Source: Ectothiorhodospiraceae bacterium WFHF3C12
GTDB taxonomy: Bacteria; Pseudomonadota; Gammaproteobacteria; Nitrococcales; Nitrococcaceae
DNA length: 36,905 bases
Direction of reading: 5' to 3'
Assembly: GCA_013519935.1 (NCBI GenBank)
Contig: JACDUA010000046.1
Coordinates: 1-36,905 of the forward strand
Under the pieces are notes generated by a model. It was not told the DNA's origin and did no database searches. It saw only the letters and a program-made list of their open reading frames with translations. Below, piece after piece: positions 22,668-22,753 of the stretch. The translations under genes and the position numbers were made by a program. Position 1 is the first letter of the stretch, and the number at the start of each line of letters is the position of its first letter.

Positions 22668-22753
22668 GAATCGCGCCCCGCGGCGCTCCTACAGGCGCCA
22701 TCCGTTTCCGTTGGATGCCGCTCGCGGCATGAGCGCCGCTGGGCGCGATCAGG
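22668..22753. repeat. Inverted pair of REP-like elements (REPIN-like) before eno
   Basis: The left copy reads on the minus strand from CCTGTAGGAG (22695 down to 22686) through a 5-bp hairpin (22673-22677 with 22682-22686) to CGCGATTC. The right copy is on the plus strand (22731-22753), with a degenerate head GCATGAG just before it. Bases 22670-22688 and 22731-22749 are inverted copies matching at 18 of 19 positions, 42 nt apart. The spacer contains another hairpin, ATGCCG-CTCG-CGGCAT (22715-22730). A GTAG head followed by a GC hairpin is the pattern of REPs mobilised by RAYT-type transposases; none is encoded here. Confidence 0.65.

Follow-up and report, generated by a model that had tools for sequence, protein, structure and literature searches.

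The window analysed here, a stretch of 36,905 nt from Ectothiorhodospiraceae bacterium WFHF3C12, carries an open reading frame which we take to be kdsA and, downstream on the same strand, a coding stretch that is presumably eno, both names coming from the first-pass annotation of this DNA. Between the end of the kdsA stop codon (22647) and the eno ATG (22786) lies a gap of 138 nt (22648-22785; the query sequences cut from it ran one base into eno, including the A of the ATG). Reading the sequence directly, we counted 18 matches over 19 positions between 22670-22688 and the inverted copy at 22731-22749, with 42 nt separating the two arms, in agreement with the first-pass annotation, which had described them as a REPIN-like inverted pair of GTAG-type REPs. 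Its further description of heads facing inward, with a hairpin in the spacer, was borne out by direct reading and by RNA folding. The features of the locus are collected in Table 1.

Table 1 Features of the presumed kdsA-eno region of the window
Feature	Position	Strand	Basis
kdsA (presumed), upstream neighbour	21811..22647	+	ORF; KdsA relatives at 67-79% protein identity among the matches listed
Complete REP (GTAG + GA, GC hairpin, CGCGAT tail)	22670..22692	-	Pattern match; 34.3 bits, weight matrix
Flank before GTAG, GGCGCCT, with CT directly before GTAG	22693..22699	-	Base counts in 159 copies (commonest GGCACCT)
Remaining spacer, including the greater part of a small hairpin predicted at 22699-22717 (CATCC/GGATG)	22700..22725		RNA fold
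Decayed opposite REP; flank GGCA, stem and CGCGAT tail kept	22726..22749	+	14.1 bits; alignment
eno (presumed), downstream neighbour	22786..24075	+	ATG read; codon-usage coding call; N-terminal motif

On the minus strand the left arm, prolonged to 22692, has the sequence GTAGGAGCGCCGCGGGGCGCGAT, in which a short palindrome comes after a GTAG tetranucleotide as in GTAG-type REPs. The succession of GTAG head, GC hairpin and CGCGAT tail noted for it in the first-pass annotation was recovered by the pattern GTAGGAGCG-N(0-14)-GCGAT, with a single match in the window and no match in any of 100 shuffles. The right arm is less complete: a pairwise alignment with the 30-nt consensus, in which the GGCACCT flank precedes the REP, shows 6 nt missing from the head region, its head reads GCATGAG with no GTAG, and its flank is gone apart from GGCA, while stem and tail are present. 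An Rfam scan of the window returned nothing at the gathering cut-off.

A search of the full genome (4.62 Mb in 168 contigs) for the arms, as the first-pass annotation had proposed, revealed a multicopy REP family. The pattern GTAGGAGCG-NN-N(0-12)-CGCGAT, which the left arm matches, occurs at 123 sites (65 and 58 on the two strands, with positions listed for 100 of them) and its reversed control at none, a copy number in keeping with GTAG-type REPs; the REP is found elsewhere in the genome, which leaves the proposal of the first-pass annotation unrefuted on this count. Searching with the whole gap gave at least 65 matches including the gap itself, every one of them overlapping an arm (40 of 142 first-look candidates were scored). 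We then catalogued the family in a 252-kb set of 69 segments, the window among them, which had been picked for REP matches or Y1-transposase genes. Two weight matrices, one for each stem variant (C or G at position 10), were trained on 105 of 110 23-mers (five whose position 10 holds another base were excluded; the left arm is one of the 105, the right arm is outside the training set). At a threshold of ≥12 bits they identified 159 REPs, a catalogue that favours well-kept copies and is blind to longer REPs, as the matrices span 23 nt. No match of ≥12 bits was seen in two replicates of Markov-1 random sequence of equal length.

Within the window, only the two arms reached ≥8 bits (the right-hand match spanning 22727-22749). 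The 252-kb set contains a single copy of the left-arm 23-mer, which departs from the commonest form at one base of the loop; the right arm ranks among the weakest catalogued members of a family in which GTAG is intact in 135 of 159 copies. Both arms therefore belong to one REP family, and the right one is decayed. Of the proposed pair of GTAG-type REPs, common family membership stands, and the GTAG of the right arm, a headless copy at 14.1 bits, does not. A chance inverted repeat in GC-rich DNA might be entertained on the grounds that the gap is high in GC and folds with an energy close to that of shuffled sequence (see below), but the left arm matches a pattern with 123 genome sites against none in the control, and the right arm outscores everything in the random sequence. 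The pattern count and the matrix scan of the window refute this explanation, and we consider its probability practically nil.

The family appears to be restricted to a narrow lineage. Across 23 genomes of the taxonomic family, the broad pattern matched 123 sites here and 0-3 sites in each of the 22 others, where reversed controls gave 0-4; the genus is represented by one genome. The consensus 23-mer GTAGGAGCGCCGCRAGGCGCGAT, from which the left arm of the window differs by one base, occurs 68 times in this genome and is absent from 53 others in the order. A kdsA gene is present in 22 of the 23 family genomes, our own included. Among the 21 further kdsA loci examined, the eno motif follows kdsA in four (L150-L153), and the gap comparison covered these four, the remaining 17 being left out. 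Their kdsA-eno gaps measure 340, 82, 42 and 31 nt, and the REP is absent from all of them; three of the genomes (L150, L151, L153) have zero matches to the broad pattern, and the single match in the fourth (L152) lies on a different contig. The KdsA proteins of these relatives are 73-76% identical to that of the window (77% for the nearest KdsA in the family), a distance at which no clean empty site is demonstrable. It is nevertheless likely that the REPs were inserted into the kdsA-eno gap.

Among 80 kdsA loci from other taxa, 64 have the eno start motif downstream, in some cases far off (four of the 64 had an apparent kdsA-eno gap of 0); GTAGGAGC is present exactly in none and with one mismatch in four. 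REP-like heads of another type were seen in two such kdsA-eno gaps, with three copies of GTAGGGGC in a Thiomargarita MAG (L079) and one in Rhodanobacter fulvus (L119).

The genomic context of the family was assessed on 93 REP clusters, with genes called by our own codon-usage script. No cluster midpoint fell inside a called gene (0/93), and all 89 clusters with genes on both sides were intergenic, as GTAG-type REPs are and as the left arm is. Of these, 45 lay between convergent genes, 39 between genes on the same strand and 5 between divergent genes, the other four clusters being at segment ends. Across the same segments, all gaps longer than 60 nt, those with REPs among them, comprised 46 convergent, 68 same-strand and 17 divergent cases, and the lower divergent share of the clusters (5/89 versus 17/131) was not significant (Fisher P = 0.11). 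The shortage points in the same direction as that of GTAG REPs in general, which are described as scarce between divergent genes (Di Nocera, De Gregorio and Rocco 2013, PMC3733652).

We next considered how the REPs are paired, taking the pairs of this genome itself, rather than those of Pseudomonas fluorescens SBW25, as the standard of orientation. In the 159-REP catalogue, 28 copies are single and 131 paired. Singlets might have been expected to be more decayed than paired copies, an idea that gained no support, as the median score is 40.7 bits in both groups of this catalogue, which is biased towards well-kept REPs. The 66 neighbouring pairs ≤100 nt apart comprise 62 with GTAG outward and 4 with GTAG inward. 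Between the 23-mers of the outward pairs there are 19-28 nt in 56 of 62 cases, and between those of the inward pairs 20, 28, 31 and 34 nt, the last being the kdsA-eno pair; an additional inward pair on C91 (29214 minus, 29257 plus), with a 25-nt partner, is not among the four. The GTAG-inward orientation is therefore unusual for this genome, and the direction of GTAG tells its usual REP pair from that at kdsA-eno. As a separate observation, outward pairs are mainly heterodimers of the C and G stem variants: in the 57 pairs that lie ≤40 nt apart and score ≥20 bits in each arm, 45 were mixed, 12 C/C and none G/G, and neither the number of mixed pairs nor the lack of G/G pairs was matched in 10,000 shuffles. 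A preference in the pairing of stem variants is reported for other families, with no obvious explanation (PMC3733652).

Against this background, the designation of the kdsA-eno pair as REPIN-like could not be upheld. Outward pairs, with some 24 nt from one 23-mer to the other, are probably the form that multiplied in this genome, and a pair whose heads point inward is poorly served by the name REPIN. The pair instead has the features of the dimers with GTAG inside that are termed TT dimers and have variable spacers (PMC3733652), that is, one family, GTAG inside and mostly 20-100 nt between the partners, apart from the loss of the right-hand GTAG. Could it still be a true REPIN, a mobile inverted pair that jumped into the gap as one unit? 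Its arms come from one family and are inverted, its spacer can form a hairpin, the REP is plentiful in outward pairs, and TT dimers are common in related families (PMC3733652). However, its GTAG ends point inward across 34 nt, as opposed to outward across mostly near 24 nt in 62 of 66 close pairs, and one arm is without GTAG. In addition, the 252-kb set contains the spacer core only at this site (best score elsewhere 23 of 52, with shuffled cores at 20-30); two other sites (C145 and C112) span the spacer at 74-76% overall, owing to the arms, and the spacer at C145 is different. Insertion as a mobile unit of this kind is, in our judgement, very improbable.

An inward pair could also arise where two outward REPINs meet and the outer arm of each is decayed past recognition. 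Precedents of a kind exist among the other three inward pairs, one of which (C25) lies within a +-+ triplet and another (C151) has an outer match that is weak, scoring between the 95% and 99% null levels and near the latter; the third (C145) has none. In the window, on the other hand, the outer positions score -25.2 and -40.3, where the null has its median at -33.0 and its 95% level at -18.9, and the left outer position falls partly inside kdsA. Decayed outer arms were rejected for the kdsA-eno site, as no trace above the 95% null level is present in the window, and the junction explanation appears unlikely. A rough simulation, using 36 singlets and an intergenic space assumed to make up 13% of the genome, predicted 0.13 close pairs, against three observed inward pairs that lack a third REP (P = 0.0005). 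Combined with the excess of TT dimers in four published GTAG families, including GTAG-1, whose GW and 3-base tail this REP shares (PMC3733652), this argues against viewing inward pairs as nothing more than relics.

REPs affect mRNA stability and transcription in other bacteria, and the first-pass annotation had suggested an effect of the pair on eno expression. In the predicted RNA fold of the gap (-63.3 kcal/mol) the arms pair around the spacer hairpin, placing a stem 22 nt past the kdsA stop and 36 nt ahead of the eno ATG. The energy of this fold was ordinary (z = -1.87, with 8 of 200 shuffles equally good; z = -1.60 and 14 of 200 in a longer context), and neither an intrinsic terminator with a T-run nor a sigma-70-like promoter was found in 22500-22950. 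Though possible, a role in eno expression, which would draw on this predicted stem and its energy within the shuffle range, is unsupported.

It might be argued that the stem is under selection as an RNA element (an attenuator, an mRNA-stability element or a processing site) that sets the kdsA/eno ratio. The 19-nt arms have a single mismatch and lie close to both genes, the distance of 22 nt to the upstream gene is the joint second shortest among the 39 same-strand REP clusters, and the pairing of the arms persists despite the decay of the right head. Arms that are both copies of one palindromic repeat would pair in any case, though, and to this are added the ordinary fold energy, the lack of terminator or promoter signals in the region scanned, and the missing REP in the four family members with eno beside kdsA. 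We regard selection on such an element as decidedly unlikely. We likewise give very little credence to the related proposal that the decayed pair has been kept for an RNA stem shaping the joint kdsA-eno transcript, as a relic turned operon regulatory element.

The bases before GTAG and the transposases of the genome bear on how the family may have spread. In the 159 copies the commonest bases before GTAG are GGCACCT, conserved in many of them, and CT stands immediately 5' of 90/159 REPs; GGCACCTGTAGGAGCG with ≤2 mismatches has 131 genome sites against 34 for the reversed control. TnpA-REP reportedly has a 5' CT cleavage site and a role for GTAG (PMC8266576). By analogy, the CT before GTAG in this family would be in line with the TnpA-REP cleavage site, exact spacing aside. 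The same article describes GTAG as essential in the E. coli TnpA-REP system, GTAG mutants as poorly cut in S. maltophilia, and a Marinomonas system as tolerant of a changed GTAG.

Six Y1-transposase matches were present in the genome. Four exceed the NCBIfam cut-off of 80 for REP-associated tyrosine transposases (142.2, 129, 191.6 and 90.9 bits), and two lie under it (74.9 and 57.8 bits). RAYT genes of this genome are located on C167, C140, C105 and C136. In this assembly of 168 contigs, none of the six loci has the REP studied here within 700 nt of the ORF. Concerning the proposed link to a RAYT, genes of the REP-transposase family are thus present in the genome, and no RAYT gene with this REP on its flanks was found at these loci. 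RAYT genes may disappear while REPs persist (PMC3733652), and the RAYT of the GTAGGAGCGNCGC family may be hidden by the fragmented assembly or may have been lost.

Repeats of other kinds were observed around some of these genes. Two RAYT loci (L062, C167:3688-3996; L063, C140:3479-3772) are surrounded by many GTGGGAG-type repeats, spaced at about 100 nt in the former and partly at 50 nt in the latter, while the remaining four Y1-transposase loci show isolated head-like heptamers only. One RAYT gene (L065, C105:27386-27712) has GTAGGGTGGGC-type palindromes on either side. The pattern GTGGGAGCG...CGCCGCGA occurs at 126 genome sites (control, 1), indicating that at least two abundant REP families coexist in the genome.

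Taken together, these findings are best explained by two lineage-restricted GTAG REPs in TT arrangement, one complete and one headless, which were probably once mobile and now remain in the gap as a relic or by-product; we assign this reading a probability of roughly 0.85. A REP-associated tyrosine transposase (RAYT/TnpA-REP) would have spread the REPs via single-stranded REP DNA, with GTAG probably serving as the guide and the CT just before it as the cutting site. The multiplying unit in this genome would be the GTAG-outward pair (REPIN), as its number and regular spacing suggest, and the inward kdsA-eno pair would be an immobile relic or by-product, a part of the explanation that is weakened by how common TT dimers are in related families (PMC3733652). 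The negative RAYT result at the six Y1-transposase loci, the distance of the nearest family KdsA (77% identity) and single REPs that score no lower than paired ones also count against the explanation. In the mRNA, kdsA and eno would be expected to be separated by one long GC-rich stem, whose effect on the transcript would be passive and mild at most. On its own the kdsA-eno site, with new copies of a known kind of element, contributes little. The family, with a consensus missing from the other searched genomes of the order and a strong pairing rule for its stem variants, provides a small data set on RAYTs and REPs.

In comparison with known systems, the family shares with the GTAG superfamily the GTAG end, the GC stem and the intergenic location, and with GTAG-1 and GTAG-2 the GW (GA here) and a 3-base tail (GAT here) (PMC3733652). 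Superfamily members lie mostly between convergent or same-strand genes (PMC3733652), as do the clusters here, by a margin over the gaps of the same segments that is not significant. It departs from the published GTAG-1 families, in which TT dimers outnumber HH dimers, in that HH dimers prevail here by 62 to 4; TT dimers likewise outnumber outward ones in GTAG families 1, 3, 19 and 24 (PMC3733652). The kdsA-eno pair also differs from the TT dimers of that article in that its right partner is without GTAG. As in E. coli BIMEs, two inverse REPs are joined by a variable linker and a putative CT cleavage site is present; the REP sequence differs from that of BIMEs, and no tnpA-REP gene flanked by the REP was found (PMC8266576). 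In P. fluorescens SBW25, inverted REP doublets prevail, with the doublet (REPIN) as the replicating unit and singles interpreted as remnants (Bertels and Rainey 2011, PMC3116915). Inverted doublets similarly predominate among the REPs of this genome, and it is from these REPIN-like outward pairs that the pair in the window is set apart by its reversed orientation and other spacing.
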